Positions 1,909 to 44,650 of a DNA stretch of 64,000 nucleotides are shown piece by piece. A program made the translations under genes and the position numbers. This stretch comes from Massiliimicrobium timonense (GTDB taxonomy: Bacteria; Bacillota_I; Bacilli_A; Erysipelotrichales; Coprobacillaceae). Below the pieces are notes generated by a model. It did not search any database. It was not told where the DNA came from and saw only the letters and a list, made by a program, of their open reading frames with translations. The DNA lies in the NCBI RefSeq assembly GCF_002160865.1, contig NZ_NFLJ01000004.1, positions 1 through 64,000 on the forward strand, written 5' to 3'. Within the stretch, counting starts at the first letter, position 1; each line of letters starts with the position of its first letter.

Positions 1909-1927
1909 AGAAAACGAGGTGAAAACA

Positions 1928-22977: not shown

Positions 22978-23409
22978 TTAATATTCAAAATGTTCAGCTT
23001 GCCACATATTAATATAAAGTTCATTAAAATCATCAATATCATCATATTGAAAATGAACATCATAATGGCCATTCACATAAAAATCAAATGTCATTTCTCT
23101 CCAATCATCTCCACATTTTTTACAATAATCATGAATATCCTGTAGAATAAGGCTAACTTCATCTATGCTATCTTCTCTTAAATCATCTTCCGTTCCTTCC
23201 CAAAACTCTTTCAGCAAGTCTAAATAATCATCACCTGGTGAATATTGATAGTAAATTTGATAATTATCCATCAAGTGATCTTCTTTTATATAATAGAAAG
23301 AACCTAAAACAACATGATACCAATTTTCTGGTAATGCATTATTTAAGTGAAAAGCTAAATCTTTAAAATATTTATTCATTTTATCTTGATTTTCCTTTGT
23401 TGTTGCCAT
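22978..23409 (-). CDS. YezG-family (DUF600-like) immunity protein
   Basis: 143-residue acidic protein. The pattern LPENWYHVVLGSFYYIKEDH, then DYLDLLKEFWE and finally WREMTFDFYVNGHYDVHFQYDD resembles the YezG/DUF600 family (compare WxxxTFxxxxxGxFxxxxxYDD). Its founding member neutralises the nuclease toxin YeeF. It begins two bases after a nuclease gene of the matching type, with AGGATAG before the ATG, so it is most likely the antidote. High Asp/Glu content fits inhibition of a nucleic acid-binding enzyme. Confidence 0.75.
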   Translation of the reverse strand: MATTKENQDKMNKYFKDLAFHLNNALPENWYHVVLGSFYYIKEDHLMDNYQIYYQYSPGDDYLDLLKEFWEGTEDDLREDSIDEVSLILQDIHDYCKKCGDDWREMTFDFYVNGHYDVHFQYDDIDDFNELYINMWQAEHFEY

Positions 23410-23411
23410 AT

Positions 23412-23924
23412 CTATCCTCCGTTTCTAAAAGTTTTAGAATAATATTTAACATCACCATTTTCATTTTCTATACGATAAGAAATTCTAAAACGGTCCGGAC
23501 GTTCACTCTCGCCTTTATAAATCATTTTTATATCAACATCAACTTTTTTTCCCTCAGAAATATCCTTTACCCAGCTTTCTTCCAAAGCTTTATATTCATT
23601 ACGATTTAATCCTTTATCCATCGCAACTAAGTTATCTATTTTCCCAGATCCTTCAAATCGTGATGCAATAATATGTCCACCTTCATCATTTTCTTTACGA
23701 TCTTCATGTCCTGCCTCTAATTGGTGATTCCCATATCTCTTTCCTTCTCCTAGATGCAACACACCAGATGCTTCTTTAATTCTACCTTTGGAATCTGTTT
23801 CATAATGATACCCATTTTTCTCATACTCATAGTTTTCTTTTAATCGATAAGTTGACTGAAAATGATCATCATTTTCTTTTGTTTCATCAACTTCATCTTC
23901 TAAATCTTCAATATTTCTTTTCAT
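23412..23924 (-). CDS. DNA/RNA non-specific nuclease toxin (YeeF C-terminal type)
   Basis: 170 residues. The core GEGKRYGNHQLEAGHEDRKENDEGGHIIASRF followed by NLVAMDKGLNRNEYKALEESW is the Endonuclease_NS_2 pattern: catalytic His in GGHIIA (about residue 85), metal-binding Asn in NLV, then YKALE. The last part (YKGESERPDRFRISYRI) is the family's closing strand region. In LXG toxins this domain forms the C-terminus of a long secreted protein. Here a short charged segment (about 40 residues, rich in Glu/Asp) replaces the LXG part, so it is a free-standing toxin. The immunity gene follows immediately. All key residues seem intact. Confidence 0.8.
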   Translation of the reverse strand: MKRNIEDLEDEVDETKENDDHFQSTYRLKENYEYEKNGYHYETDSKGRIKEASGVLHLGEGKRYGNHQLEAGHEDRKENDEGGHIIASRFEGSGKIDNLVAMDKGLNRNEYKALEESWVKDISEGKKVDVDIKMIYKGESERPDRFRISYRIENENGDVKYYSKTFRNGG

Positions 23925-23930
23925 TTATCA

Positions 23931-26900
23931 TCACCTAAAAAATTTTTGAGAATTTAAAATATCTATAGCTATTTGATATTTATCACTACCAGTCATAGAC
24001 CAATATTTTTGACTATAAGAAAATAAAATATCATGAAAAATATCATTAAATAGTTCTGCTTGATAAGGATTTGATGGCCAACTATAATGTGATACAGGAT
24101 CTACTTCTAGAGGCATAACTAAATATTGCCCAATCACCTCTTTAATATTTTTTCCCCATCTCAAAGCCTCATTGATATCTTTTTGTTTTGGAGTTGAAAA
24201 TAAATCAAGGTGATCAACAATATTTAATGGAAAGATTTTAAAAACACTGGTTAATCTCAAAAAGTCAAACATAAAATCACGATAAACCCCTTTCAGTCGA
24301 TTATGATTGTTCTTTTCAAACAAAGAGGCACTATTTTCAAAGAAAACAGATATATCTAAAATAATTTCTTGAATTTTATCTTCTGATAAAATATTTACCT
24401 GACCTTTTGCGGTTAATTCTTTCACCAAATCAATTGTATCATTTCTTAAATCATAATAATCTTTGTCATAAATTCGACTGAATAAAAATTGAACAACAGC
24501 TCCTTTAACCCTTATATAATTATTTCGATCATAAATGACATCTTGTCGTGTTCCTAGTACATGGTTATTCCAGATATTTCCCATTTTAGCAAGCAATGTA
24601 TTAGTCCATCCGACATGATAAATAGCTGCAACACCAATATCTAATCTGCTTAATTCTTTTATTTGTTCTTCGTTTAAACTTAATGCAGCACCCATAGCTT
24701 CACAATCTTCCTTATTAGGCAATCTCATAACAATTTTAATGGCTGTATTTTTAATAGCTGTTTCATCAATAGCTGATGGTGATTGATCAATAATCATAAA
24801 TCCTTCACCAAAACTTCGCATTTCTGCAATACATCCACATAGCATCTTAACTGATTGTCCTTGAACATTTCCTGATTCAATGTTTGTATCTTGTGAACAA
24901 CGTTTTAAAATATTATGTGCTTCTTCTAATACTGTAATATGCTGAAGTGATGCATTTAATGTCTTACGTGTAGCTTTACGATACTCTTGTAATCTAATAA
25001 TAAGAACACCCATAATGAGTGATTTTGTATCTTCTGAACCAATACTACTCAAATCAATAATTGTATTACTATCAAACAATACTTTATCAGCAATACCTAT
25101 AGAATTTCCAAAAATCTGACCTTCAAAACCATTATTTAAAGAAGATACACGATTTAATAAAGCTCCTTTATAATCTCCTTTAGATTGTTTCGAGTATGGT
25201 GAATCATCAATAATCTGATTTAAGGCTATTTCTAAATCTTTAAATGTTGGATATTTGCTTCCCCTATCGACAATCCTTATTGAATATTCTAAATCCCAAC
25301 CATGATCAATATAAACTTTTTCAAATGCCTGTTTTAATAATCCTGGCATAGCTCCATATAATGGCCAGCAAGCACATACTGTAGAACTCAAACGATCTAA
25401 ATGTTCTCTAATATGAATATGAGGGTTAAATTCAAAAGGATTAATTTGTAATTTTCGATAAGCGCTATCTTCTGCAACAAAAATATTTATACTTTTTAAT
25501 GCAGCAAATTCAACCTTATATTCTCCCTTAGCTGGCTCAATTACAAGAAATGGAATCTTTCGCTTAATCATTTCATATAATAAATTATAGGTTGTATTAC
25601 TTTTACCAGATCCTGATGCTCCACAAATAAAACTATGCGAAGCAAAAGAGTCTAAATTAAGACACACTGGTGTATGCTCAATACTCCCCATATGATAAAC
25701 GTTACCAAAATCGATTGGTCTTTTTATTTTTTGACGCCAATTTTCTGGAACATTACGTCCAAATTCTGCCGCACTATCAACTACAACTCCCGGAACGGAA
25801 CGGTGCGGTATGCCTAACATAACTGGTAATTCTTTACCCGAAACCATTAATGCAGGAGTTAAACATTGTGCCGGAATAGATTGACCTTTCTCATCAATGA
25901 GCGAGATCATATTTCCATCATTATCTAATTTATACATTTCTAATTCAATTTCTGGGTGATAAAGATTTCCTAAGTATTCCAAAATTTTATCTCTATCAAT
26001 TTGTCCGCCAGGTTTGCAAGCATTCCACTCATTAATATACGCATGACTTGCTCCTTTATTATCCCCTGCTAATAAAGAAAGTAATGTTGCTATAGCAATA
26101 GAAGCTGTTGAAGAATCTTCTGTAATAATATAACTTGCAGCATTCCACATTCCAAACAATTGGTTTGATTCAATTCTTTTAATCATAACATCAAGTTTTT
26201 CTAACATATCTACAACGGCCTTATTATCTCTAGTCACAGACACTGTACGTGTTGTACCATGTGTCCTGCCCAAAGCCTCTGATTCATTTGAATTATCACC
26301 ATCAGTAGTAACATTTCCTTGACTATATCCCGTACTTATTCCTTCACTTTGAGCAAGAGTTGATGACCATGATGAACCATTAGAGAAACCAATACCATCC
26401 CATGAAGAAGAAAAACCACTATTTTTACCCTTTCCATGAGCTATACTAGATGTATGGTTTGTTCCATAAGAATTAGATATAGATTGACTTGTAGAATGAC
26501 TGATTCCATTAGAAATTGTATAATTAATACTATCTGTTTCACTTTCAGCATAACTAGCTTGTTCTTTAGCATAAGGGGATAAAGATGTATATATATCTTC
26601 AAAACCACCCTTAGCCAAATCCATTGCCTCACTAGATATTTTTTGGGCTAATACAACAAGTGTATATTTCTTCCCATTCATTGTATCAATAAATTTCTCA
26701 TAACCCTGTGAAGTCAAGAATCTACCCTTTTGTTGTTCTTCTTCCCTTCTTCCAGGAATCATACTCATTGCTTTAACTGTTGTGCTTCTTTTCTGCTTTA
26801 AATCTGTTGAAAAAGAATCTAATAACTTTTCTTTATCTAGATTATTTAATTTAGATAACTCACAACCAGGAAATTGCCCTTTAAAATTACTACATAGCAA

Positions 26901-27353
26901 ATTACCAGCAACCGATTCATTATTTTCACTATTCACACATAAATATAATTGTGCATATTTACCGTCACTTTGAATGATAATTCCAACAGTTCCTCCAAAA
27001 GTATACATTGCTGAATAAACACTTACTAATTTTTCAAAATTATCTTCATCTTGATTATACATAATTTTCGTTACATTATAGATAGCAATATTCTTAAGAC
27101 GATTTTTTTTATTAGCTTCTAATACACCAACTTTACTTTTGTATAAATCACCATATCCAGCAGGTTGAAGCATTTCCATATGACGACTATTTACAAAGAC
27201 ATCTAATAATTTTAATGAATCTTTTAATCCTTCCAAACGTTGTTTTGTCATTAATAATTGTTTTGCTTTTTCTTCTTTAGCATCTTTACTTTTTTTTGTT
27301 TGATAGCGCATGTTGGTCTTTTTATTTCCATTATAATCCGCTATATTTGGCAT
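23931..27353 (-). CDS. HerA/FtsK-like ATPase (DUF87 type) with serine-rich linker
   Basis: 1140-residue P-loop motor. Residues 1-270 are an unassigned N-terminal domain. About 275-355 is a low-complexity Ser/Gly/Asn-rich stretch (for example ISHSTSQSISNSYGTNH). Walker A GASGSGKSN is near 577-585, EPAKGEYK follows, and Walker B ITVLEEAHN is near 806-814. A sensor block SPSAIDETAIKNTAIKIVMR precedes the arginine region. The arrangement resembles HerA-type hexameric translocases used in DNA end processing and conflict systems. There are no membrane helices, so it is soluble. AAGGGGG precedes the ATG. It sits directly before the nuclease gene (6 bases), so it could feed DNA to, or control, the nuclease; that is inference. 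Confidence 0.85.
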   Translation of the reverse strand: MPNIADYNGNKKTNMRYQTKKSKDAKEEKAKQLLMTKQRLEGLKDSLKLLDVFVNSRHMEMLQPAGYGDLYKSKVGVLEANKKNRLKNIAIYNVTKIMYNQDEDNFEKLVSVYSAMYTFGGTVGIIIQSDGKYAQLYLCVNSENNESVAGNLLCSNFKGQFPGCELSKLNNLDKEKLLDSFSTDLKQKRSTTVKAMSMIPGRREEEQQKGRFLTSQGYEKFIDTMNGKKYTLVVLAQKISSEAMDLAKGGFEDIYTSLSPYAKEQASYAESETDSINYTISNGISHSTSQSISNSYGTNHTSSIAHGKGKNSGFSSSWDGIGFSNGSSWSSTLAQSEGISTGYSQGNVTTDGDNSNESEALGRTHGTTRTVSVTRDNKAVVDMLEKLDVMIKRIESNQLFGMWNAASYIITEDSSTASIAIATLLSLLAGDNKGASHAYINEWNACKPGGQIDRDKILEYLGNLYHPEIELEMYKLDNDGNMISLIDEKGQSIPAQCLTPALMVSGKELPVMLGIPHRSVPGVVVDSAAEFGRNVPENWRQKIKRPIDFGNVYHMGSIEHTPVCLNLDSFASHSFICGASGSGKSNTTYNLLYEMIKRKIPFLVIEPAKGEYKVEFAALKSINIFVAEDSAYRKLQINPFEFNPHIHIREHLDRLSSTVCACWPLYGAMPGLLKQAFEKVYIDHGWDLEYSIRIVDRGSKYPTFKDLEIALNQIIDDSPYSKQSKGDYKGALLNRVSSLNNGFEGQIFGNSIGIADKVLFDSNTIIDLSSIGSEDTKSLIMGVLIIRLQEYRKATRKTLNASLQHITVLEEAHNILKRCSQDTNIESGNVQGQSVKMLCGCIAEMRSFGEGFMIIDQSPSAIDETAIKNTAIKIVMRLPNKEDCEAMGAALSLNEEQIKELSRLDIGVAAIYHVGWTNTLLAKMGNIWNNHVLGTRQDVIYDRNNYIRVKGAVVQFLFSRIYDKDYYDLRNDTIDLVKELTAKGQVNILSEDKIQEIILDISVFFENSASLFEKNNHNRLKGVYRDFMFDFLRLTSVFKIFPLNIVDHLDLFSTPKQKDINEALRWGKNIKEVIGQYLVMPLEVDPVSHYSWPSNPYQAELFNDIFHDILFSYSQKYWSMTGSDKYQIAIDILNSQKFFR

Positions 27354-27365
27354 AAAATTCCCCCT

Positions 27366-27584
27366 TTACAAAGCTTCGTCAATCTCTAAATCTTCTTCAT
27401 TGATATAGTCCCCTTCACGTTTACTATCAATATAATCAGATTGCTTTAAATCTTTCATATCGTATCTATCCTTAATATCTTCCATCTGTTGATTAAACTT
27501 TATTTTATCTTCATCACTCATTTCATCATAATGCATAGACTTTTTTTTCAATAATTGAAACTCATCAAATGATTTCTTCTTCAT
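27366..27584 (-). CDS. Acidic mini-protein B
   Basis: 72 residues, highly charged, starting MKKKSFDEF. It shares the block HYDEMSDEDKxKFxxxxExIxxxY with the protein encoded just upstream, so the two are tandem paralogues. The acidic tail EGDYINEEDLEIDEAL has no fold I recognise. A clear AAGGAG precedes the ATG, and gaps of 9 and 12 bases join it to its neighbours. It could be an adaptor or inhibitor of one of the ATPases. Confidence 0.7.
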   Translation of the reverse strand: MKKKSFDEFQLLKKKSMHYDEMSDEDKIKFNQQMEDIKDRYDMKDLKQSDYIDSKREGDYINEEDLEIDEAL

Positions 27585-27593
27585 AATACTCCT

Positions 27594-27884
27594 TTATAAA
27601 ACCATATCATCATCGTCATCCCTTTCAGGATCATCATCAATTTCTCCTTCTTTAGTAATATCTCTTTCTTGTTCTTCTTTATATTCATCATCGTCTTTTT
27701 TATCATCATCTTGATTATCATTATCATCCTTTTTATCATAACCTTCTTGATACTCTTGTCTGATTTCTTCTTCTTTAGCATCAAACTTTGCTTTATCTTC
27801 ATCACTCATTTCATCATAATGGCGTTTTTCTTTTTGATCATTAATCATTTCGTCCATTTCTTCTTTAGATACTTTTTTTGCCAT
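27594..27884 (-). CDS. Acidic mini-protein A
   Basis: 96 residues. MAKKVSKEEMDEMINDQKEKR is followed by RHYDEMSDEDKAKFDAKEEE, shared with the 72-residue neighbour. The C-terminal half is almost entirely Asp/Glu/Lys (DKKDDDEYKEEQERD and a DDDDD run) and is probably disordered. The ribosome site GGAG lies before the ATG. Such DNA-mimic-like composition could bind basic surfaces of the nuclease or motor, but there is no direct evidence. The long plus-strand open frame across this region only mirrors the acidic codons. Confidence 0.7.
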   Translation of the reverse strand: MAKKVSKEEMDEMINDQKEKRHYDEMSDEDKAKFDAKEEEIRQEYQEGYDKKDDNDNQDDDKKDDDEYKEEQERDITKEGEIDDDPERDDDDDMVL

Positions 27885-27901: not shown

Positions 27902-30595
27902 CTATTTTTTCTTCTTAAAGAAACTACTAAATCCTTCTTTCACTTTATTAAAACTAAATCCTTTCATCTCACCAGCAATATCTTTAATATGTTCATTTAA
28001 TTCAGATGCTTTTGCACGATTCTTACGATCACGAATAGTATCAATAACGTCTAACCACAAATCTTCTTTATAATATTCTGCTAATAATGAAATTCCTTCA
28101 CTTTCCACATATTGACGAATCATTTTATCCATTTTTTGACTACAAAGAATATCAATACATATTTCAATAGCCGTACTATCCTTTTTTGTTCTTTTAGCAA
28201 TAATATCAAAATATTTTTTTATTATTTCTTCTTGAACAAAAGAATCTGCATCAAACATGTAACATGCTTCAACAAAAGCTTCAGAATCCTCAATATATTT
28301 ACCAATTCCTTCAATAAAAATTTGAATCCATTCTGTATCTTTTTCATCTACCACAATATGATTTTTTCTAACTTTGCTAATAAATGCTAATAAATGACTC
28401 TTTTTTAAATGCTGAACTTCTTCAGCCAATTGAGCTTTACTTAGATTCTTGGTAATCATATTTAAATCTCTACACCAATCTAAGCATTCTTCAATCATTT
28501 TTTTATCTTCTCTATTTTTAACAAAAGATGGCATAAATTGGTCAATACGACTCAACAAAGTTACTTGTAAACTCTTTGAAAATTGCTCATCTCTTACAAA
28601 ACTAATCAAACGAGAAATTTCTTGATATTTATTTGATTGTGATGCTACAATTAAAAGATACTGATCAAAGAAAGAAATTCCTAATTTTTTATCATTGTCC
28701 ATACTTACAAATAATAATTTAAATGCTTTCAGCAAAGCATCACTTGTTTTTCCTTGTTTTTCCATATAAGTAACTAATAACAATTCTACTGCTTTAGGTG
28801 AAATTCCTGCCAATAACATGTCTTGACATTGATTATATAAATTATTGTCAGAAATACGGCTTCCATATAGTGTAATCCAATTTTTAGTAATAGGAGTATT
28901 AAAACCAACAGTTGTTGCAAATTTCATTGTTAAAGCATTCATAACATCAGAATTATAATTTTGTACTAAATTCATAACTTTTTTATCATAGTCTTCTGAT
29001 AAAATTAATTTATATAAATTAAACAATAATCCTGTCCATCCAGAATGTTCAACAAACAGTTCTTTATTTAATCCCTTATCTTTTAAATAATCGTTTAATA
29101 AGGATATGATTAAGTATCCATAATCAAAAGCAACTTCATCATCAATATATTCTAATTCCTTAAGTTTAGATATAGAACCTACTTTTTCTTCATCAAAATA
29201 ATAATCACTTACGAACTTATACAAAACATTATCTTTTTTCACTGATTCCCAGAATTTTTTAGCTTGTTTAATATCAAAGCTATTTTTATTCATTATAAAG
29301 TCCACTATTTGATAAATCATCGAACTCACATTATTCATATATTTTGAGTGTTGAGATTGTAAGCTCGCATGAAAGATAAAATTAAGTAATTGATAATCAT
29401 TTTTACTATCTTCTTGAAACCATTGATTTTTTGATTTATAAAGTTTATATAATTGTACACTGAGATTAATTTTCAATAGACTTTCTGGCTTCAAATAGTC
29501 ATTCAATTGTTCAAGATAATGCATTAACTTTTGATATTCCCATTGATTAGGACAATTCTGATCTTTAAATAGATAATGATAAATTTCATAAATTTTATAA
29601 ATGTCGTTAAAGTCATAGTGATCAAATGATTTTAAAATAGAATTAAAATCATTCATATTTTCATCGTAAGCACATACAAATTGTAAATAATCATGATTTA
29701 ACTGTGTTGTATAAGAAATCTCTTTAGTTGTACCATCAATCACAATAAATGGAGAATTAGGAAGTGGTTTAAATCCAGATGCTGACATTGTCAAAGGAGA
29801 AATGCCAATAATATCATAAAGTAAATGCGGTGTCAGATTTTCATGATTAGGTGCATATCGTGCATAAGAGCCATCAGAATCTAAACAATACATAAAAGAT
29901 CCTACGTTACTTTTCTCTATTTTCGCATTTGTATTAAAAGAAATTTTTTTACTCAATTCCAAAGGTAATGCATAGGTAATACAAGCTATCCACTTCAAAA
30001 CGTTTAAAGCATCATCTTTGATAATTAAAACTTTTTTATGCGAAGAATCTGCTTGTTCAATAAGAAAACTGATTGCATTTTGAATAGTATCTTCTCTACC
30101 ATCATGATAAAATTCTTTAATTTGTTCTTTTGTATATTTTGGTGATGGTTCTAATTCTTTTGATGGAAGGAAATCACAAGTTTCATTCATTTCATAATAA
30201 TACTCAGATGGATAATCACAATAAGGATATAATGATTCATTCATATAATTGACTGGATAATCATTAACTTCACCAACATATAAATGTTTAATAAAATTAC
30301 CTGCACGCTTATCTTCATGGGATAATCTTTGATGTTGAAAACCAAAAAAAGATACTTTACTATTAAGCTTCATATATTCAAATGAATCAATAAGTCCCTG
30401 TTTAGCTGTTGTTTTAGATTCATTTCTATTTTTTATATATGCCTTTGCAAGTAAACTAATCTCTTTACTATCCAAATGATCATAAATTTCTTTACTAAAT
30501 GATCTTATTTTATAGCCACTACTTTTATCCTCTATTCCGTTTTTTTCTAATTGTCTACCGAAATTATTTCTAGTATATATAATTTGATCAAACAT
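27902..30595 (-). CDS. Large GAP1-like (GTPase-associated) protein
   Basis: 897-residue soluble protein. The first 250 residues contain IIYTRNNFGRQLEKNG, GFQHQRLSHEDKRAGNFIKHLYVG and a later VLKWIACITYALPLELSKKISFNT. These resemble, from memory, the N-terminal domain of GTPase-associated protein 1 (GAP1) families predicted in GTPase-linked conflict systems. The rest is long alpha-helical repeat-like sequence ending in a basic SSFFKKKK tail. No nucleotide-binding or catalytic motif is visible. It starts 9 bases after a GTPase gene with a GGAGG site, supporting a partnership with that GTPase. The family name should be confirmed by profile search. Confidence 0.6.
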   Translation of the reverse strand: MFDQIIYTRNNFGRQLEKNGIEDKSSGYKIRSFSKEIYDHLDSKEISLLAKAYIKNRNESKTTAKQGLIDSFEYMKLNSKVSFFGFQHQRLSHEDKRAGNFIKHLYVGEVNDYPVNYMNESLYPYCDYPSEYYYEMNETCDFLPSKELEPSPKYTKEQIKEFYHDGREDTIQNAISFLIEQADSSHKKVLIIKDDALNVLKWIACITYALPLELSKKISFNTNAKIEKSNVGSFMYCLDSDGSYARYAPNHENLTPHLLYDIIGISPLTMSASGFKPLPNSPFIVIDGTTKEISYTTQLNHDYLQFVCAYDENMNDFNSILKSFDHYDFNDIYKIYEIYHYLFKDQNCPNQWEYQKLMHYLEQLNDYLKPESLLKINLSVQLYKLYKSKNQWFQEDSKNDYQLLNFIFHASLQSQHSKYMNNVSSMIYQIVDFIMNKNSFDIKQAKKFWESVKKDNVLYKFVSDYYFDEEKVGSISKLKELEYIDDEVAFDYGYLIISLLNDYLKDKGLNKELFVEHSGWTGLLFNLYKLILSEDYDKKVMNLVQNYNSDVMNALTMKFATTVGFNTPITKNWITLYGSRISDNNLYNQCQDMLLAGISPKAVELLLVTYMEKQGKTSDALLKAFKLLFVSMDNDKKLGISFFDQYLLIVASQSNKYQEISRLISFVRDEQFSKSLQVTLLSRIDQFMPSFVKNREDKKMIEECLDWCRDLNMITKNLSKAQLAEEVQHLKKSHLLAFISKVRKNHIVVDEKDTEWIQIFIEGIGKYIEDSEAFVEACYMFDADSFVQEEIIKKYFDIIAKRTKKDSTAIEICIDILCSQKMDKMIRQYVESEGISLLAEYYKEDLWLDVIDTIRDRKNRAKASELNEHIKDIAGEMKGFSFNKVKEGFSSFFKKKK

Positions 30596-30604
30596 AGTAA
30601 CCTC

Positions 30605-31705
30605 CTAATCTTTATCAATGATTTTTTCTTGAGCAAATATCCACATTAAAGGATCCAATACACGATGAGGTTCAACAGTATTTAATTGTTTTTCACCAAT
30701 GGGAACATTACCAAAGCTACTAACTCCAAAAAAATGCGCATTTTTAAAGTTCATATCGATAGAATCTAGGAATGGACCTTCTCCGACTTGTTCTAAATAT
30801 TGTCGAATTTCATCATTCACTAGATTTGCATCTCCTGTCTTAAACTTTCTTTCTCTGGTATGAGGACTTGGTTTTGTAATTTGTTGCTGCCCAAACTGAT
30901 CTAAAAGAAGATCAATTTTTGTAAAACATATAGCTATAGGAATTTCAATTTTCCTTGTAACCTTTAAATTAGCAGCTTGTCGAATATATGATGCCATATC
31001 TTGAGCTAAATTGATAGATGCATCACTATCATCATCTTCTTCTACCTTTCCTTCTGGTAATGACCACTCTAAAACATCTTTATCTTGAACAGTTTGTTTA
31101 ACCTTATATAAAGACATTGGATCAACAAGAAAAATAACATATTTTGATGCAGCAATATATGAAGCAACATCACTATCCATCATTTGTGTTTGATCTTCCC
31201 CAGCTCCATCAAAAATAGTCATACAATATGATTCAAGTCGAGACATTTTCCCTGGCTTTCTAATTCGCCATTGATAGGGTATAATTTCTCCAGAATTTGT
31301 TCCTTCAGAGGGCTTTAATTCCTTATAAATACTATTCTTTTCTTCCAAAAAACGATTATTTGTTGCACTATTCATAGCCGAAACATCAAAACCACAACGA
31401 CTTGTTTTCAATTCTTGAATCATTGTTGTAATGTAATTCGTCTTTCCGGAACCAGATAATCCGACAATGGAAAAAGGTATATACTTTTTATATTGAAAAA
31501 TATCATTTGGCAATTCATTAGAACATGCACCACATTTCAATACAACTCTTTTAACTGCACTCCCTTTACACTTAGGACATTTAGGCAACTTTCCATTTTT
31601 TACTCCTAGTGGCATAATGAGTTTACTATTACAACCTGTACATTCAAAATAGGCTGTTTTTGTAGTAACTTTCTCAAAACAATATGGACATAATATATCA
31701 CTCAT
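30605..31705 (-). CDS. Soluble zinc-ribbon P-loop GTPase
   Basis: 366 residues. Eight cysteines in four CxxC pairs (CPYC 6-9, CTGC 22-25, CPKC 43-46, CGAC 58-61) form two zinc ribbons. The nucleotide domain has Walker A GLSGSGKTN at 82-90, a switch-like TIFDGAGEDQTQ (DxxG) and VIFLVDPMSLYK. A TKID motif in IAICFTKIDLLL gives guanine specificity. There are no membrane helices. It is related in layout to the membrane-anchored GTPase at 39702-41345, making a pair of GTPases in one operon, as described for double-GTPase conflict systems. A GGAGGAG site precedes the ATG. Confidence 0.8.
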   Translation of the reverse strand: MSDILCPYCFEKVTTKTAYFECTGCNSKLIMPLGVKNGKLPKCPKCKGSAVKRVVLKCGACSNELPNDIFQYKKYIPFSIVGLSGSGKTNYITTMIQELKTSRCGFDVSAMNSATNNRFLEEKNSIYKELKPSEGTNSGEIIPYQWRIRKPGKMSRLESYCMTIFDGAGEDQTQMMDSDVASYIAASKYVIFLVDPMSLYKVKQTVQDKDVLEWSLPEGKVEEDDDSDASINLAQDMASYIRQAANLKVTRKIEIPIAICFTKIDLLLDQFGQQQITKPSPHTRERKFKTGDANLVNDEIRQYLEQVGEGPFLDSIDMNFKNAHFFGVSSFGNVPIGEKQLNTVEPHRVLDPLMWIFAQEKIIDKD

Positions 31706-31724: not shown

Positions 31725-34700
31725 TCATTTCTTTGTTGGAACATTTAAACTTTTTTCATTCAACACTTCTAATTCATATTCATCTTGATCTTCTTTATCA
31801 ATAAACAATCTTAACTTTGCTTTGGCAGGTATACTATCTGGTATATCCAATAGTACTGATAACGATTTTGATGGTTGACTTTCTATTTTTTTTGCAACAA
31901 TTACATTTTTTCCTGTATAATCTAAAGGAATCTTACCATCCGTAGTACCTACTAAATATAAAGTTGGACATTCAGTATTTTCACCATCAATGCGTAAAAT
32001 AGCTCCTTTACGTCTAGGTGTAAAAGTACCTTTCCATTGAATTTCATAATATATTTTCTTTTTAGGACTATTATTAATATATAATTTTGAAGGCTCAGAA
32101 AAATAACTTTGATTTCCTTGAGATAATTCAGCAATCACTGTTATGTATAACTGATTTTCTGGTAGAGCATCAATGGGAATACAATGTTGACGTTCGTAAC
32201 TTTCTAATGAAATCACTTTCATTTCATCTAAATTATCTTTTGTTAGATATGGTGGCTTACTTGATAAGTTATCTTTTATTTTACAAGCATAATATAATTT
32301 AATTATATTTTTAGCTAATGGTTCTTTCAAATGAATATTTAAACGATTATTTTTTACTTTCGTTTTTTGTTTATCAATCTCACACTTTTCAAAAGTCGAT
32401 ATATTGACATAATTACCTAATACAGCCTTACTTCCAGCAATAGTTGCTATTCCTAATTTATATCCTGTATTTTTTAATGGGGCAAATTGAATTTTAGAAT
32501 CCAGACTATCTCCATAAGCAACTATTTTACCATATTTAGTCAATTCCGAAGTATTGATAATATCATTCGGTAAGCCAAATGATCCAACAAGATGAATAAT
32601 TTGTATTTTATATGGTTTTGGTGTATTTGATTTTATATCAAGTATTATTTTTTGTTGTGTTGAATTATACTGTCCCTGACGAATTGTCACAGGATCTGGA
32701 ATATCTTCACTAATAATATCTTTAGTTATTCCATTTGTATAAATCAACTTACCCTTCATCTGATAAATAATCTGAAAACGATATTGATATAAAACTCCAT
32801 TTTCTAGATGACCATCCTCAAAAGAACTATAAACATTATTAGCTACACACTGTGTATTTCCTCCCGGTTGATTTGCAACAGCCCCACTTTTACTTTTCAA
32901 AACACGAACTCCTATTGCATTCTTTGGTAGTGTCCATGTAAAAATACATTTTCCCTTATCTAAGTAGAAATTCAACATATCTTCTCCCATATCAACAGTA
33001 TATGTTATTGTTTGAGAAACAGGCTGAGACAAAACAGACATTCTTCTAACAAAAGCAGTATAATAATAAATAGAACCAGGATTAATTTTGCGATCAACAT
33101 AAGTTAGAGTTCCTGCCGAACAAAAAATTTGTTCCCCATCATTTATATTTTTTGAAGGACTATCCTCTTTTCTTAAAATAACATACTCAACACCTATATC
33201 TGGTGAAGCGTGCCAACTTAATTGTACACCATTATTCTCCAAAGTAACCATGAAATGACTTACAGGCCTTGGAGCTGTTTGCATCACAAATTCTTTTGCA
33301 TCAATAAAATCACTAACATCTCTTAAAATTCTTATACATGTATTAGCTGCTTCATACATGTTATTACTTTTTTGATTAAACATCTGTTTTGCTTTTTCTA
33401 AAGTGTCTTGTATCTTTTTTTCTTGAGCTTTTAAATTAAGCTTTGGATATTGCGATTTGATTTGACTAAGATAACTATTTGCCTTATTATATTCATTCTT
33501 ATTTATATATTCCTGAAGTTGATTTAATGGCTTTTCATACATTTGATTTAATTTTTTAATTTGTTCATCTAATGATTTTAATTGATTATTTTTAGGATCT
33601 GCAACTTGTGCCTTATGGTAATATTCTACTGCCAGTGCAATATCAGAATCTTGTATTGCCTGTTTTGCATTTTGATAATAAGAATCAAAATATTGGTACT
33701 CTAATAAATCAAAGTGACATTTTGTACATTTTCGAATTGATGTAGGAATAAGTTTACCACAATTTGGACATTTTCTATAATACATTTCACCACATACAGG
33801 GCATTTTGCTTGCATTGCTTCTTTAACTGATTGAAAAGTTGCAGGTGATTGGCAATTGCCACAATAAACATGTATCAAAGCTTTTTCTGGTTCATAAGGA
33901 TCACGCATTAATCCCAAAGTCTGATTATATATAGTAAGTGCTAAATCATAATCAGGAAATTTTGTCTGAATTCTTTTGATAACAACATCAGCAAAACTTT
34001 CATCTTTTTTCATACTATCAGGAACATTTTTAGCAATTGCAAAAAATTCATCTAGTTCCATTAATTTTCTCGAGTTATCATAACGCATTCGTGTTTCATC
34101 ATTGGCAAATGCATCATTTTTGGCTTTAGAAAACAAAGTACGAGCTTCCGGAACGTTTTGTTTTATAGAATAAACCTTATCACCATCAGTTGCAATACTT
34201 AACAAATCTCCTGTTTTCTTATTATAATAATTCATATTTGGTTCATTATTATAACAAGCTAGTAAGTCATATAAACTATTCACTTTTTTTGTCAACCATG
34301 GATATTTTTTAGCTACATCTGGTTTATTCATTTCTGCTAATAATTTATTAATTTCTCCCATTTGATCTCTTAAAAAATATTTATTAAAATCTAATGTATT
34401 AGCTTTCATTTTAATATCAAAATGATGATTTTTAAATATTTTAGAGACTTCTTGAATTTTTAGTCCTGATTTTTCAGATATACTTCTTAAACGAGCATTC
34501 ATAATAGGAATTGGGCCTTCTTTATCAGTACTTAGAATCCTCGCTAAATTATCAATTTCACTTTTTCTTTTCTCAATCATTGCTTGAGCTTCTTGTTTTC
34601 TTAATTCAACATTAAACATGACTTTTCTCATTTCTGATTCTAATGCCATTTCTTCTTTTATTTTATTTTTTTCAATTAAATCGGTTTCAATAGAAAATAA

Positions 34701-34808
34701 TTGATTTTTTTCTTTTATCCATTTTTTGATAGCCTCTTCAATTACTTGTTCATTTTTTTCATTAAAATCTAAACCATTAAGTAATTCAAAAAAGTTTTGT
34801 CTCACCAC
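31725..34808 (-). CDS. Scaffold protein: coiled coil, zinc ribbons, helical repeats and Fn3-like domains
   Basis: 1027 residues starting with GTG (34808), seven bases after AGGGGG. Order of parts: a charged coiled coil (about 20-95); a helical region; zinc ribbons with CGNC, CPVC, CPNC and CTKC (about 305-365); TPR-like helices (QNAKQAIQDSDIALAVEYYHKAQ); then several beta-rich Fn3-like modules (VQLSWHASPDIGVEYVILRK, YYYTAFVRR). There is no J-domain, nucleotide motif or membrane helix. It lies between the Hsp70-vWA gene and a GTPase gene and could link the two groups or recognise targets. It may take the place of a DnaJ co-chaperone; that is speculation. Confidence 0.65.
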   Translation of the reverse strand: MVRQNFFELLNGLDFNEKNEQVIEEAIKKWIKEKNQLFSIETDLIEKNKIKEEMALESEMRKVMFNVELRKQEAQAMIEKRKSEIDNLARILSTDKEGPIPIMNARLRSISEKSGLKIQEVSKIFKNHHFDIKMKANTLDFNKYFLRDQMGEINKLLAEMNKPDVAKKYPWLTKKVNSLYDLLACYNNEPNMNYYNKKTGDLLSIATDGDKVYSIKQNVPEARTLFSKAKNDAFANDETRMRYDNSRKLMELDEFFAIAKNVPDSMKKDESFADVVIKRIQTKFPDYDLALTIYNQTLGLMRDPYEPEKALIHVYCGNCQSPATFQSVKEAMQAKCPVCGEMYYRKCPNCGKLIPTSIRKCTKCHFDLLEYQYFDSYYQNAKQAIQDSDIALAVEYYHKAQVADPKNNQLKSLDEQIKKLNQMYEKPLNQLQEYINKNEYNKANSYLSQIKSQYPKLNLKAQEKKIQDTLEKAKQMFNQKSNNMYEAANTCIRILRDVSDFIDAKEFVMQTAPRPVSHFMVTLENNGVQLSWHASPDIGVEYVILRKEDSPSKNINDGEQIFCSAGTLTYVDRKINPGSIYYYTAFVRRMSVLSQPVSQTITYTVDMGEDMLNFYLDKGKCIFTWTLPKNAIGVRVLKSKSGAVANQPGGNTQCVANNVYSSFEDGHLENGVLYQYRFQIIYQMKGKLIYTNGITKDIISEDIPDPVTIRQGQYNSTQQKIILDIKSNTPKPYKIQIIHLVGSFGLPNDIINTSELTKYGKIVAYGDSLDSKIQFAPLKNTGYKLGIATIAGSKAVLGNYVNISTFEKCEIDKQKTKVKNNRLNIHLKEPLAKNIIKLYYACKIKDNLSSKPPYLTKDNLDEMKVISLESYERQHCIPIDALPENQLYITVIAELSQGNQSYFSEPSKLYINNSPKKKIYYEIQWKGTFTPRRKGAILRIDGENTECPTLYLVGTTDGKIPLDYTGKNVIVAKKIESQPSKSLSVLLDIPDSIPAKAKLRLFIDKEDQDEYELEVLNEKSLNVPTKK

Positions 34809-34819
34809 AAATCATCCCC

Positions 34820-36994
34820 CTATTCATCTACAGCATCCCATGTATCAACACTACTATACTCTCTATTTATTTTTCCTTTTGTATGTGATGAATCATGAAT
34901 TGTTTGTGCAATATTACCAAATGATTGACGTAGCTGTTTTTCATTAATTTTTAATGCTTTTTCAGAAATAGATGAAATTTTTCTTAAAAATTCTAAATTT
35001 GATTCTCCTATTCCAATAGCAATAATTTCAATTTGATTTTTTTTACAAATCTCAGCAGTAACAGTGGGTTCTGGTTCCATTCCATACCAGTCTCCATCTG
35101 TTAAAACAATTATAATTTTTCGACCTTTTACAGATTCAAAGATTTTTTGAGCTGCTGGAAAAGGATCTGCTGAAGTTCCGCAACCTCCAATACCACTATC
35201 CAAACTATCTGTACTTTTATTAATTTTATGTCTATTTTCTGTTAAAGATTGAATAGGAGTAATACTTGATGAAAAAGCCAAAATACCAAATGATACATTT
35301 TTCCCTTTTAACTTATGTACAAAATCTTTAATAGATAATTTTGCTTCATCAATACGGCTTCCTGCCATTGAGCCAGAAGTATCAATAACAAATAGTACAG
35401 ATACTTTTTCTTGCGTTATTTTTTCCTGCGGAATTGGTTGCCCAAATCTAGAAATATCTTTATCAATCGGTTCCTCTCTTATAGGTAAATCATATTGATC
35501 ATCTTCTTGTCTAGCTTGAACATGAACTAACCCGCTTGCATCATAACTATATTGAATACGAATGATAGTTGGTCCATCTTCTTTATGTTTAATTCCTGAT
35601 ATAACATATTTATTCAATATTTCACATTCTAGAATTGGTTTAGTCCCTTGTAATAAGTAAATATCAACTTCATTTTTACGATTAGGATATGTGTAATATT
35701 GAAATTTCTTTGCACATTTAACAGGAATTTCTTGATTTGCCGGGATAATATTTTGATTTTCATAATGTGTTCCCTCTGCATTTACTGCTATTATCCCTAA
35801 AGCATGTGCCTGAACATCTTTTACTCGTATCGCTGAAGCATGAGTTAATGATTGTTCTTTTTTAACCAAACCTGCTTTAAATCGTGTTGGCGTAGATTTT
35901 AATTCACCAGCTTGTAATTTTTCATATTTAGGAATAGGTAAGATTGTTTGAATAGCTGCACCTAAAGCAACAGCTTCATCAGGATTAACTTGTGTTAAAG
36001 GTCTATGCCCACTTACTTTCTCAAGATATTTAGAAACTTGAGGCATTCTTGTTGATCCTCCAACTAGTAAAATATCAGTCACTTGATGCCAGTCCATTTG
36101 ACTTTCTTTTAGAATTGTTTCACATAAAGTGACTGTTTGATCTAATAACGAATGTGTCAGATTTTCAAAATCTTCAACTGTGATAATTGTTTCATAAATC
36201 CCATAGTGAGGTACTCGTAACTTTATCTTTACTTGCTTTGCTTTCGTTAAATCTTTTTTTATTTTTTCCACATTTCCACTTAGCTCATTCATAAATTGAT
36301 TATCTTTTTTTACATCTTCCCCAGTTTCAGAATAGATTAATTGAATCAAGTAATGGACTAATGCACGATCCCAATCTTTTCCACCTAAAATATGATTACC
36401 CATTGTTTTTAAACAATGAATTTCATTATGATTTCCCATTTGTAATAAAGTAACATCAAATGTTCCACCACCTAAATCATAAACCATAATAACTGCATTT
36501 TCTCGCCAATGATTTACCCCATAATTTAGAGCAGCTGCCGTTGGTTCATTAATCAACATTCTTACTTTCAAACCAGCTTTTTTTGCCGCATTTAAAGTTG
36601 CTTGTCTTTCTTTATGAAAGAAATATGCTGGCACAGTGATTACCGCTTCTTCAATAGTATCATTTAAAATCTTTTCTGTATCTTCTTTTAATGCTTTTAA
36701 AAGCATAGCTGAAAGTTCTTCAGCACTATATCCTTTTCCTTTGTAAAAAGCATAAGGCTGATTATCTCCCATTCCTCTTTTAAATGCTGTAACACAACCA
36801 ACATCGCCTTCATCAAATGCTTCTTTCGCTTCATCTCCAATAATAATTTCACCATCATCACAAAATTGAATAACTGACGGTGTAATATGATTGCCATATT
36901 GGTTCTTAACAATTTTAGGCATTTGAGTTGTTTTATCATATATAGCCACAGCAGAAAAAGTTGTTCCTAAATCAATCCCTATTTTAACACTCAT
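34820..36994 (-). CDS. Hsp70-vWA fusion protein
   Basis: 724 residues. The N-terminal part is an Hsp70 ATPase: KIGIDLGTTFSAVAIYD, VMVYDLGGGTFDVTLL-like segment, INEPTAAALNYG and VGGSTRMPQVSKYL. A shortened substrate-binding segment follows (about 380-510). The C-terminal 190 residues are a von Willebrand A domain with an intact metal site: DTSGS near 537 and GGCGTSADP plus VLTDGDW later. vWA domains bind protein ligands via Mg, so this fusion ties chaperone ATPase activity to adhesion-like target binding. It follows a second, vWA-free Hsp70 after a 63-base gap containing a hairpin. GAGGAGAGG precedes the ATG. Confidence 0.9.
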   Translation of the reverse strand: MSVKIGIDLGTTFSAVAIYDKTTQMPKIVKNQYGNHITPSVIQFCDDGEIIIGDEAKEAFDEGDVGCVTAFKRGMGDNQPYAFYKGKGYSAEELSAMLLKALKEDTEKILNDTIEEAVITVPAYFFHKERQATLNAAKKAGLKVRMLINEPTAAALNYGVNHWRENAVIMVYDLGGGTFDVTLLQMGNHNEIHCLKTMGNHILGGKDWDRALVHYLIQLIYSETGEDVKKDNQFMNELSGNVEKIKKDLTKAKQVKIKLRVPHYGIYETIITVEDFENLTHSLLDQTVTLCETILKESQMDWHQVTDILLVGGSTRMPQVSKYLEKVSGHRPLTQVNPDEAVALGAAIQTILPIPKYEKLQAGELKSTPTRFKAGLVKKEQSLTHASAIRVKDVQAHALGIIAVNAEGTHYENQNIIPANQEIPVKCAKKFQYYTYPNRKNEVDIYLLQGTKPILECEILNKYVISGIKHKEDGPTIIRIQYSYDASGLVHVQARQEDDQYDLPIREEPIDKDISRFGQPIPQEKITQEKVSVLFVIDTSGSMAGSRIDEAKLSIKDFVHKLKGKNVSFGILAFSSSITPIQSLTENRHKINKSTDSLDSGIGGCGTSADPFPAAQKIFESVKGRKIIIVLTDGDWYGMEPEPTVTAEICKKNQIEIIAIGIGESNLEFLRKISSISEKALKINEKQLRQSFGNIAQTIHDSSHTKGKINREYSSVDTWDAVDE

Positions 36995-37014
36995 CTTATC
37001 CTCTCCTCTATATT

Positions 37015-37056
37015 TTATAAAAACGATAGGATATTGTAACCCTATCGTTTTTATAA
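37015..37056 (-). terminator. Intra-operon hairpin (partial terminator)
   Basis: Perfect 16-bp arms (37015-37030 and 37041-37056) with a 10-base loop, directly after the Hsp70 stop codon. On the minus strand the descending arm contains CGTTTTTAT followed by AAAATATAG, so it is a plausible leaky terminator or RNA-processing/stabilising hairpin between the two Hsp70 genes. Confidence 0.65.
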
Positions 37057-37057
37057 A

Positions 37058-38746
37058 TTACTCACCTGTAATTGAAACTCTATTTAAATTTTTAGCCATT
37101 TGTTCCATTTCTTCTTGGCTAATTCCATTATCATAATGAATGACTTCTTCTTTTGTCACACTTAAATCCGTAGATAATGTCACTTTAATAATAATTCCAA
37201 CTGGTTGTACTGTAAATTCTACATAAACAACAGTTCCTTTTGGATCATTACCATTTAAATTGAGAACAAGTTCTCCTAATTTTTTTACTTCTAAAGATGG
37301 ATCTGTATCTTGTGGTACATCTTCTCCAGTTTGAGGATCTGGTATAAAACATGGTTTTTCAGTATCTTCTACAGAATGACTTTCATAAACTGGGAATACA
37401 ATCATTTTTTGATTATCTACCATTGTAACATACTGTTTTTCAATAGTTTGGTTAATTTCTTGACCTTCTTTCACTAAATTGTCAATTAAATAATCATTAC
37501 CAAAATAGATAGCAGGACCGAATGATCGAGGTGCAACATCAACAATGATGCTTTGATTCGTTTGGGTTGTGACACGATTTGTATTTTCTTCCCCATCCTC
37601 ATGATGAATAGGTGAAACATCAATATCTTCTCCATTATCCTCAGAAACCTCACTAACAATCATATCTGCGTAAATTGCAGCTCCTTTAGCAACTGCTCTA
37701 TCAGGATCTTCCACTTGTACTAAACCTGGGAATCTTTCTTCAACCACTCGTTTAATCATAGGCATATTTGTAGATCCACCAACCAATAACACTGTATCAA
37801 TTTTTGGTTCTTCTCCAATCACCTTTTTTGCTTTTTCTAAAGTTCCCTCAACATAACTCATAGTCTGATCTACTAAAGACTTTGTCAATTCTTCAAATTC
37901 TTCTCTTGTTACATTAATTTTAACCATTTGGCCTTCAACAGAAACTTTAACAACTGCCTTTTCAGCTTGAGTTAATTTTTTCTTTGTTATTTCAACTTTA
38001 GAACGAATGCTTTGAATTGTTTCAACATCTAAATCTGAAGTAGATAACCCTAATTCATCACATACTTGATTTTTAATTTTTTCAAATAATTTATCATCCC
38101 AATCTTTACCACCTAAAGCATCATTTCCACCAGTTGCAATAATTTTAATTTGACGTTCATCTTTTCCATCCTCATTAGGAATAACTGACATATGAACAAG
38201 TGTAACATCAAATGTTCCACCACCTAAATCATAAACCAAAATATTTGTTTCTTCTTGAAATAATCTTGAACAATAATTAAGTGCAGCTGCTGTTGGTTCA
38301 TTAATTAAATTCAATACATTTAAACCAGCAATTTCTCCTGCTTTTTTTGTTAAATCTCTTTCTTTAAAACCAAAATAAGCTGGACAAGTAATAATAACGT
38401 CTTTAACTTCTTCTCCCTGTTCTTCAGCCATTTCCTTAACACGTTTTAAAATAAGAGCTGATAATTCAACTGGTGTAAATTCTTTTCCATGAATCACATG
38501 TGCTCCATATTTATCTTCCTTACCAATTTCTCTTTTTATAAACTGAACAACATTCTCTCCATCAGTTTCAACATACTCCTTAGCACTTTGACCAATGATA
38601 ATATTATCAAGTGTTTCAAAATAGATTGCTGATGCTAAAGTATCTGATGCGTCAGTGATATTAGAAATCACCTGAGGATTTCCATTCACATCCAATTTTG
38701 CAATACAAGAATAAGTAGTACCTAAGTCAATTCCATAAACAGCCAT
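37058..38746 (-). CDS. DnaK-like Hsp70 chaperone (dedicated paralogue)
   Basis: 562 residues, close to DnaK length but about 50 shorter at the C-terminus. The ATPase motifs are complete: YGIDLGTTYSCIAKLD, LINEPTAAALNYC, LVYDLGGGTFDVTLV, GGNDALGGKDWDD and LLVGGSTNMPMIKRV. The substrate domain differs from housekeeping DnaK: DVAPRSFGPAIYFG replaces DVTPLSLGIET, and the lid is short and acidic. A GrpE-like gene ends two bases before its start, so this is a self-contained chaperone pair. No DnaJ is present. Confidence 0.9.
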   Translation of the reverse strand: MAVYGIDLGTTYSCIAKLDVNGNPQVISNITDASDTLASAIYFETLDNIIIGQSAKEYVETDGENVVQFIKREIGKEDKYGAHVIHGKEFTPVELSALILKRVKEMAEEQGEEVKDVIITCPAYFGFKERDLTKKAGEIAGLNVLNLINEPTAAALNYCSRLFQEETNILVYDLGGGTFDVTLVHMSVIPNEDGKDERQIKIIATGGNDALGGKDWDDKLFEKIKNQVCDELGLSTSDLDVETIQSIRSKVEITKKKLTQAEKAVVKVSVEGQMVKINVTREEFEELTKSLVDQTMSYVEGTLEKAKKVIGEEPKIDTVLLVGGSTNMPMIKRVVEERFPGLVQVEDPDRAVAKGAAIYADMIVSEVSEDNGEDIDVSPIHHEDGEENTNRVTTQTNQSIIVDVAPRSFGPAIYFGNDYLIDNLVKEGQEINQTIEKQYVTMVDNQKMIVFPVYESHSVEDTEKPCFIPDPQTGEDVPQDTDPSLEVKKLGELVLNLNGNDPKGTVVYVEFTVQPVGIIIKVTLSTDLSVTKEEVIHYDNGISQEEMEQMAKNLNRVSITGE

Positions 38747-38748
38747 TT

Positions 38749-39690
38749 TTAATTCTCCCCTTCTTCATCTAATTTATTTTCATTAACTTTAATATCATTT
38801 GATTTCTCTAATTCTTTTTCATCACTAATTTCTTGAGTCATTTCTATATTTTCTATTTCTTCACTCTGTAAATTCTCTTTTGCTAATGACTCATCATATT
38901 TATAAATTGAAACATATTCAGGATATAACACCTTTTTACCTTTAGATATACTTGGATTAAAAGATGTAATAACCTTTCGATGTAAGTTTTTATCACCCGT
39001 TAATACCAATGGTTGTTTAATTTTTGTAGTCTTCACTAATCTTTCCGTGCCAGGTTCACTACGTTGTATATCACAACCATACTCATAAAGAATATCTTCA
39101 ATACTCTCAAATAAATAAGAAACTTGTTTTTGATATTTCTCATCAATTCCTTGAACATTAAGAAGTTGATAATATTCTCCATAAACTGAAGCAATACTTT
39201 TTAATAAAGGGTCTAATCTTTCTCCTAAAAGTTCTTTTTTTAATAATTCATTTTCATTATTCATATTAACACGAACTTGCTGTTGAAACTCAGCATTTTG
39301 TCTTAAATATTGGACTAATAAATCATTATTTCGATTTTGACTCTTTGTTAAATTTTTCAGCATATCTTGCATATCTAGTGAACTATCTTTACTTTCTTCA
39401 CCATTTTCTTTTGCCTGCAATAACTGAAGAATAGAATCTAATTTATTTAAAACAGCCTCCTGATTATAAGATTGATGTAATAAAGTTTTTAATTCTGATA
39501 AAATGTCTGATTGATCAAACATTGATTCAACCACAATTTCTTCAGTTTCATTATTTTGTGAACTTTCTTTTTGAGTTTCTTCATCATTCACTTTTTCATC
39601 CTGTGATTGATTAACTAATTCTTCATTCAATGATTCTTCATCAGACAAAATATTATCTAGATTATCCATTCGCCAATCTTTTTCTATCAT
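38749..39690 (-). CDS. GrpE-like nucleotide exchange factor with acidic extensions
   Basis: 313 residues. The first 110 are acidic and probably disordered (ETQKESSQNNETEEIVVE). A long helix region (NENELLKKELLGERLDPLLK) follows. Residues about 180-260 resemble the GrpE head: EDILYEYGCDIQRSEPGTERLVK and RKVITSFNPSISKGKKVLYPEYVSIYKYD, compare GxVLRPAxVxV. The C-terminus is again acidic. The ATG at 39690 has AGGAGG seven bases upstream. Co-location with two Hsp70 genes supports the assignment; overall similarity to GrpE is weak. Confidence 0.65.
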   Translation of the reverse strand: MIEKDWRMDNLDNILSDEESLNEELVNQSQDEKVNDEETQKESSQNNETEEIVVESMFDQSDILSELKTLLHQSYNQEAVLNKLDSILQLLQAKENGEESKDSSLDMQDMLKNLTKSQNRNNDLLVQYLRQNAEFQQQVRVNMNNENELLKKELLGERLDPLLKSIASVYGEYYQLLNVQGIDEKYQKQVSYLFESIEDILYEYGCDIQRSEPGTERLVKTTKIKQPLVLTGDKNLHRKVITSFNPSISKGKKVLYPEYVSIYKYDESLAKENLQSEEIENIEMTQEISDEKELEKSNDIKVNENKLDEEGEN

Positions 39691-39701: not shown

Positions 39702-41345
39702 CTATATTTGTTCAATAGTACGATAATATTCATTATCCGTACTCTTTATAATCCAATCAAAACATTCATTAACTCCAAATGGTGTAAATTCTTCTCCATC
39801 CGGTTCATGTCCAATAGCACTTGCAACAAAAAAAGATATATTTTTAAACTGATGTTCCAATAATTGCAAAGCATTGTCCATACCATACTCAATCATAAAT
39901 TGTTTAATCTGTTCATTACGATATTGATCATATGTCATGGCTTTTTCATCCTCTCCTAATCCATTCACATATTTTTTATACATTATCTTAATATGGGCAG
40001 TACTAATTTTCTTTCTAACAATAGGTGCGTCAGCTTTACAAATCACAACAGCGACTGGCAAGTGACTCGCTCGATTTCCTTTAATAATACCAACTTGAAG
40101 TAAATAATTAATAAAATTATTCACAACTTCATCAGGTTCCATCTCCGAATAATTATTAACATTTTCACCACTAACCTCGGCTTCATTACGAATAACTTCA
40201 ACTGAAAATGGATCAATCAATAAAATAGTTCCATTACAATATTTATATTGTTGCTGAGTAATTTCATAATCACTAATTTCAGGGCGAAACATTTCCCCTG
40301 CAATATCATAAACAGCAAATTTTCTATCTGTTCCTAAATTTTTTCCTTTAACAATTAATTCATACATAGTTGCATTTGTTTCTGAGGTTGTTTCAGGTAA
40401 TATTGTACCATTATAATATTCTGATAATTCATCAAATTTCTCCTTAGATGTTAAAGGTATCTCATATTCAATTTGATTATTGGCATTTAGCTTTTTAAAA
40501 TACTCTTTATAAAAAGCTGATAAAAAGACAGTTTTACCAGAGCTACTTCCACCAGTCAATTGGATAATTACTGATTTTGTTGCATCAGAAGACAATGACT
40601 CATCACAATGCGGACAATGCGCTATTAATTTTGAACGTCCATTAAAAAAGGTACATGGTAGTTTTTCCCCACACTTACATTTATGAGTGAAAATCCCATA
40701 AGTATTTGGAACTAATTTCAAATGTCGTTCACCACAATTAGGACATTCATAAGTAGGCAGAGTAAATTGTTGTTTACAGTGTTGACAGTCCAAGTGAATC
40801 CCTTTGATTAATCGATATGAACGATCGCAGATGTATGTTAGCATAAAAATAATATAGACAAGAGCCATGACTAATAATGTAATACCACCTTGTATAGCAA
40901 TACATAATAAAGTAAATATTAATGCAATAATTGCAGATACTATAGCAATTGGTATAATCAAAACAATTGCTATAATTTTTGAAATGAATGAATCACTCAA
41001 ATCATCAAAAAAATCATAAACGCTATAACACAAATCTTTAACTTCACTATAACTGCTAGATATTCCACCTTTAATAGTTCCATATAATTGCTGATACCCA
41101 GGTCCAAAAAAATAACTCTTTTGAGCAGGTTCCCCCTCATCTTTATAACCATAGTTTTTAAAATCCAGATTTTGCTTTAAATTTTTAAAATATTCTTTAG
41201 CTACCTTAAAAGCACCATAAATCGCTAAAACACCCCCAACAGCAAGCAAAATCTTAGAAACTATTGGTAATGCAAACTCCAAGAAAGGAATAACAACATA
41301 AACAATAATCACATAAAGAATAACTATAGCAATAATATACTCCAT
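39702..41345 (-). CDS. Membrane-anchored zinc-ribbon P-loop GTPase
   Basis: 547 residues, first gene of the operon. Two membrane helices are at residues 1-50 (YIIAIVILYVIIVYVVIPFL, ILLAVGGVLAIYGAFKV) and two more near 115-175 (IIAIVLIIPIAIVSAIIALI and a following helix). Zinc-ribbon cysteines come next (CQHC, CPNC, CKC, CPHC). The P-loop GGSSSGKT is near 265-272. AVYDIAGEMFRPE is a DxxG-like switch, GTILLIDPFSV a second strand, and VICKAD occupies the guanine-specificity position. It is clearly related to the soluble GTPase at 30605-31705. A GGGGGGAG ribosome site precedes the ATG. It could place the system at the membrane as a sensor. Confidence 0.8.
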   Translation of the reverse strand: MEYIIAIVILYVIIVYVVIPFLEFALPIVSKILLAVGGVLAIYGAFKVAKEYFKNLKQNLDFKNYGYKDEGEPAQKSYFFGPGYQQLYGTIKGGISSSYSEVKDLCYSVYDFFDDLSDSFISKIIAIVLIIPIAIVSAIIALIFTLLCIAIQGGITLLVMALVYIIFMLTYICDRSYRLIKGIHLDCQHCKQQFTLPTYECPNCGERHLKLVPNTYGIFTHKCKCGEKLPCTFFNGRSKLIAHCPHCDESLSSDATKSVIIQLTGGSSSGKTVFLSAFYKEYFKKLNANNQIEYEIPLTSKEKFDELSEYYNGTILPETTSETNATMYELIVKGKNLGTDRKFAVYDIAGEMFRPEISDYEITQQQYKYCNGTILLIDPFSVEVIRNEAEVSGENVNNYSEMEPDEVVNNFINYLLQVGIIKGNRASHLPVAVVICKADAPIVRKKISTAHIKIMYKKYVNGLGEDEKAMTYDQYRNEQIKQFMIEYGMDNALQLLEHQFKNISFFVASAIGHEPDGEEFTPFGVNECFDWIIKSTDNEYYRTIEQI

Positions 41346-43270: not shown

Positions 43271-43271
43271 A

Positions 43272-44597: not shown

Positions 44598-44650
44598 ATT
44601 TTCACCTTCCTTCACTTTTTCATTAACATTTTAACATAAAGATGATTTTT

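Follow-up and report, generated by a model that had tools for sequence, protein, structure and literature searches.

A single open reading frame in Massiliimicrobium timonense joins an Hsp70 to a von Willebrand A (vWA) domain, which raises the question of what this protein is and in what kind of system it works. The frame lies in a stretch of 64,000 nucleotides (contig NZ_NFLJ01000004.1, positions 1 to 64,000), referred to here as the window. An earlier sequence-only reading had proposed the fusion; we found that its coordinates hold, with the gene on the minus strand, and that one frame carries both a Pfam HSP70 match (2.6e-107, best stretch residues 5-350) and a Pfam VWA match (1.8e-20, residues 533-678). 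Pfam, alignment and a predicted model together give the following layout.

34820..36994, minus strand: Hsp70-vWA fusion, 724 aa
residues 1-352: nucleotide-binding domain (NBD)
residues 353-389: linker
residues 390-508: SBD-beta, of the substrate-binding part
residues 509-528: spacer
residues 529-700: vWA domain, followed by a tail

In an alignment with the DnaK of the same genome, all five catalytic residues of the NBD are present, namely D8, K72, E150, D173 and T178, which we take to correspond to D8, K70, E171, D194 and T199 of DnaK. The nucleotide motifs are thus complete, as had been proposed, and from these residues the ATPase of the fusion is active-looking. The substrate-binding part had been described as reduced. 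This is true of the SBD-alpha lid, which is absent by alignment to DnaK and in the predicted model, but not of SBD-beta, which is complete at about 390-508 and matches the corresponding stretch of DnaK. The vWA domain stands in place of the lid after the 20-residue spacer, and because of this exchange the protein is an Hsp70-derived fusion and not a canonical DnaK. While NBD, SBD-beta and catalytic residues are shared with DnaK/Hsp70, the fusion further differs in about 35 extra residues before the linker and in a Met at the R167 equivalent. A scan of the protein found no TM segment, and the vWA domain is therefore cytoplasmic. In the predicted model, which was built from a three-row alignment and has a mean pLDDT of 65, the NBD and the strands of SBD-beta can be seen, as well as a vWA part in which alpha and beta elements alternate, and structure comparison of the model confirms the NBD (7krv_B, Z 36.0, rmsd 5.3, 361 aligned residues, VIA-align).

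The vWA domain had been credited with an intact metal site. In the window fusion the MIDAS pattern DxSxS...T...D is complete in the alignment: DTSGS lies at 538-542, and D538, S540, S542, T607 and D633 align with the MIDAS residues of other vWA domains. All five are also kept in the orthologue from genome G021. In the orthologue from genome G003, however, position 607 is Asn instead of the MIDAS Thr, with a Thr two residues later. The predicted metal site is therefore intact in the window fusion but not across the whole family. In the predicted model the loop carrying the MIDAS Thr (575-607) is of low confidence, with pLDDT below 50. Given this loop and the Asn in G003, the metal-dependent binding proposed by the earlier reading stays a hypothesis.

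Both orthologues have the same architecture and are 71% and 57% identical to the window fusion. They are single uninterrupted frames (L013 4969-7131 and L014 14474-16636) in independent assemblies, which by their contig records are an Erysipelotrichaceae MAG and an uncultured Massilimicrobiota MAG, both Erysipelotrichales. Scanning genome contigs with the single fusion protein gave no match, and scanning with the alignment gave the two known orthologues; Clostridia and Actinobacteria were covered by a pattern scan from the alignment alone. The fusion is present in 3/295 genomes of the order, the window genome included, and no further fusions were found in these 295 genomes or in 392 of the phylum. 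Those other vWA matches in the order that were opened proved to be unrelated proteins. Viral contigs, phages and plasmids yielded just ordinary Hsp70s and one weak vWA match; with no fusion relative among them, a phage, plasmid or viral origin of the fusion was rejected.

The fusion is one of 13 consecutive minus-strand genes that run from 41345 to 21881. They are separated by 2-63 bp, and most are preceded by a Shine-Dalgarno-like sequence. In transcription order these are:

39702..41345, minus strand: DO-GTPase with four N-terminal TM helices and zinc ribbons, first in the order (DO-GTPase1 6.6e-9 and DO-GTPase2 6e-8, both above cut-off; TM, CxxC and P-loop seen)
38749..39690, minus strand: probable GrpE-like protein (hhalign against the genome's own GrpE gives E 0.0021 yet a probability of 13%; the predicted long-helix model is of low confidence)
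37058..38746, minus strand: second, plain Hsp70 of 562 aa, NBD and divergent SBD-beta without vWA (Pfam HSP70 6e-77; 35% identical to the fusion over 443 columns)
34820..36994, minus strand: the Hsp70-vWA fusion
31725..34808, minus strand: scaffold with helical N-terminus, double zinc ribbon (CxxC x4) and probable FNIII-like repeats (all domain matches below cut-off)
30605..31705, minus strand: soluble DO-GTPase with two N-terminal zinc ribbons (DO-GTPase1 7.4e-7, above cut-off; P-loop, CxxC)
27902..30595, minus strand: GAP1, GTPase-associated protein 1 (GAP1-M PF20014 9.3e-7, 29.5 bits against a cut-off of 24)
27594..27884, minus strand: small operon protein with a homologue in G021
27366..27584, minus strand: small operon protein
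23931..27353, minus strand: HerA/DUF87-like ATPase (DUF87 8.4e-13; its counterparts in the orthologous operons share 76% and 60% identity with it)
23412..23924, minus strand: DNA/RNA non-specific endonuclease domain, likely effector (Endonuclea_NS_2 2.1e-33)
22978..23409, minus strand: YezG-like immunity protein (PF04634 4.3e-6, above cut-off)
21881..22969, minus strand: transglutaminase-like protein, in all three operons (PF01841 7e-8)

The operons of G021 and G003 keep most of these members in a reshuffled order. Endonuclease and immunity genes are present in the window and in G021, and none was recognisable in the G003 operon. The scaffold is confined to exactly the same 3/295 genomes as the fusion. 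The earlier reading is upheld on the plain Hsp70 paired with the fusion and on the link to the scaffold; fusion, plain Hsp70 and scaffold occur together in the three genomes. The G021 operon has two plain Hsp70s and two scaffolds. The latter stand in tandem (L043 174-6197), and the first copy may be decaying, because the profile match to it reads through two stops.

The surroundings of the operon are those of an insertion. Directly upstream lies an AbiLi/AbiLii-like abortive-infection pair (42614-44615, minus strand; AbiLi 7.5e-73, AbiLii 5.8e-15), and the whole 25-kb block, 19871-45277, is inserted between a phosphoglucomutase (PGM) gene and a HAD gene. The block is an accessory island, because PGM and HAD are near-adjacent in congeners (distances of 88 bp, about 2.4 kb and about 4 kb in three of them) and the G003 operon is located elsewhere in its genome. 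Elsewhere in the window, two adjacent large plus-strand genes at 1919-8204 resemble a Cas4-like nuclease and a UvrD-type helicase and are conserved in genome G001; they are possibly AddB/AddA.

R167 of DnaK contacts the HPD motif of J proteins. Its equivalent is lost in both operon Hsp70s (34820-38746): the fusion has Met and the plain Hsp70s have Asn or Asp, but the genome's two other Hsp70s keep Arg. No operon protein contains an HPD motif, and hhalign found no J domain in the scaffold N-terminus. Because of the loss of R167 and the lack of HPD, a classical J protein is probably not what drives the operon Hsp70s. The same two observations could be taken to mean that the lidless Hsp70 is uncoupled from HPD-type J domains altogether, which we regard as doubtful. 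It is likewise only a tentative idea that such an Hsp70 acts as an ATP-driven, metal-dependent capture machine and immune trigger, in which the vWA domain, and not a J protein, would select and gate the target.

The operon resembles systems that have been predicted from genomes. Kaur et al. 2020 (PMC7159879) predicted GTPase-centric conflict systems of DO-GTPases and GAP1. According to its text, the GTPase of the GAP1-N2 type as a rule bears a pair of N-terminal zinc ribbons, and when two GTPases are present, one of them has four N-terminal TM helices as well; about 14% of GAP1-N2 neighbourhoods contain HSP70 and GrpE, a subset has a second HSP70, and the FNIII protein of the HSP70-bearing neighbourhoods is typically fused to DnaJ or TPR (PMC7159879). 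Measured against this description, the window is alike in its pair of zinc-ribbon DO-GTPases, of which one has four N-terminal TM helices, in its GAP1, two HSP70 genes and large scaffold, in its Firmicutes host, and probably in a GrpE-like gene. It differs in that one HSP70 is fused to vWA, in a scaffold without a recognised HPD J domain, and in the HerA ATPase and nuclease/immunity pair that its operon carries. The C-terminal TM helix of the GTPase described there was not seen in the window DO-GTPases. At curated thresholds no GAP1-N2, GrpE, DnaJ or FNIII domain was recognised in the window operon, and no GAP1-N model scored on the window GAP1 at E 0.1 in Pfam; the scaffold homologues in G021 gave a weak FN3 match (0.0033) in one and TPR_8 (0.17) in the other. 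In its GTPases, GAP1 and HSP70s, the predicted domains of the operon match the HSP70 theme of the predicted GAP1-N2 conflict systems, which the earlier reading had not named. The available text of PMC7159879 does not mention an Hsp70-vWA fusion, which could be drawn in its figures or supplements, and the literature searched contained no experimental work on GAP1/DO-GTPase systems. The predicted GAP1/DO-GTPase kind of system is known, and what is new is the Hsp70-vWA fusion as a rare variant part.

Two other settings bring vWA close to such proteins. At seven other GAP1 loci of the same bacterial family, the stretches read contained no homologues of the operon Hsp70s. The one that was Pfam-scanned, C83 of G021, belongs to the tubulin theme of GAP1-N2 systems (Tubulin_2 7e-48, VWA 1.9e-16, and GAP1-M 4.6e-4, below cut-off for the translated protein). 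There GAP1 and vWA proteins share a neighbourhood as in the window, but the vWA forms a protein of its own, which has a signal-like N-terminus, and tubulin replaces HSP70. CoCoNuT systems are likewise defence operons with Hsp70-like and TerY-like vWA proteins (PMC11090510). In contrast to the window, their Hsp70 homologues have degenerate Walker A-like motifs and are paired with McrB-type GTPases, and their vWA is again a separate protein.

The three fusion sequences differ in rate along their length. Identity of the window protein to those of G021 and G003 is 85/73% in SBD-beta, 76/63% in the NBD and 59/41% in vWA, which ranks SBD-beta as the best and vWA as the least well conserved of the folded domains. 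Fast evolution is also seen in the scaffold, at 48/39%, and in GAP1, at 47/32%. Since SBD-beta is the most and vWA the least conserved, this suggests a conserved client in the SBD-beta groove and a variable docking partner at vWA. The evolution of vWA, more rapid than that of the other folded domains, does no more than hint that it is the recognition arm; this pace could reflect relaxed constraint rather than diversification, and three sequences are too few to tell these apart.

We think it fairly likely that the fusion acts as an ATP-driven switch within a GAP1/DO-GTPase conflict system that belongs to the HSP70 theme and is likely directed against invaders. We read it so because of its domains, the tight operon, the gene sets shared among genomes, the published match, the AbiL neighbour, the insertion site and the domain identities. 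Several findings speak against this reading: GAP1-N2, GrpE, DnaJ and FNIII escaped recognition at curated thresholds, G003 has Asn for the MIDAS Thr, its operon yielded no endonuclease or immunity gene, and relaxed constraint could explain the faster change of vWA. Beyond domain content and gene order, we infer every step. The Hsp70 part would cycle between ATP and ADP states, with SBD-beta holding a conserved partner inside the system. In the place of the lid, vWA would dock on a fast-evolving partner, which may be the scaffold, GAP1 or an invader protein; where the MIDAS is kept, docking would use a metal ion. A signal sensed at the membrane would set off the GTPases, this would change the state of the Hsp70, and the effector arm of HerA ATPase and nuclease would be released.

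Alternatively, the two Hsp70s may serve as a chaperone devoted to the operon's own products, folding or restraining its toxin or large proteins, in which case the operon would be a toxin or secretion cassette rather than sensor-type immunity. A chaperone with a conserved client groove fits this, and so does the presence of a HerA-like ATPase, a nuclease and a YezG-like immunity gene where the operon ends. However, the G003 operon keeps Hsp70-vWA, GTPases, GAP1 and HerA where nuclease and immunity genes are not detected, and no secretion genes were recognised in the operon, so we consider this unlikely.

The vWA domain could instead be mainly a structural substitute for the SBD-alpha lid that covers the groove and sets the grip on the client without an outside partner. 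Its position directly after a strongly conserved SBD-beta, via the short spacer, is where a lid would be. A lid should co-evolve with its groove, though, yet vWA is the least conserved folded domain, and the MIDAS motif is kept in two of the three sequences; we give this explanation a slim chance.

It is highly improbable that the fusion is a general stress chaperone located in the operon by chance: its NBD does have all the catalytic residues, but it is found only alongside the GAP1/DO-GTPase operon, the R167 equivalent is changed in it and in the plain Hsp70s, and the genome has its own dnaK-dnaJ-grpE cluster, for which reason we also rejected the fusion as a housekeeping DnaK. That two neighbouring genes were joined by an error of assembly or sequencing is already refuted by the same uninterrupted architecture in the two other assemblies.

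GAP1/DO-GTPase systems form a large class whose existence has been predicted purely from sequence. One polypeptide that joins an Hsp70 engine to a vWA arm is a handle for testing crosstalk between their chaperone and GTPase parts. The fusion would also show how the Hsp70 mechanism can be rewired when both the lid and a classical J protein are missing.
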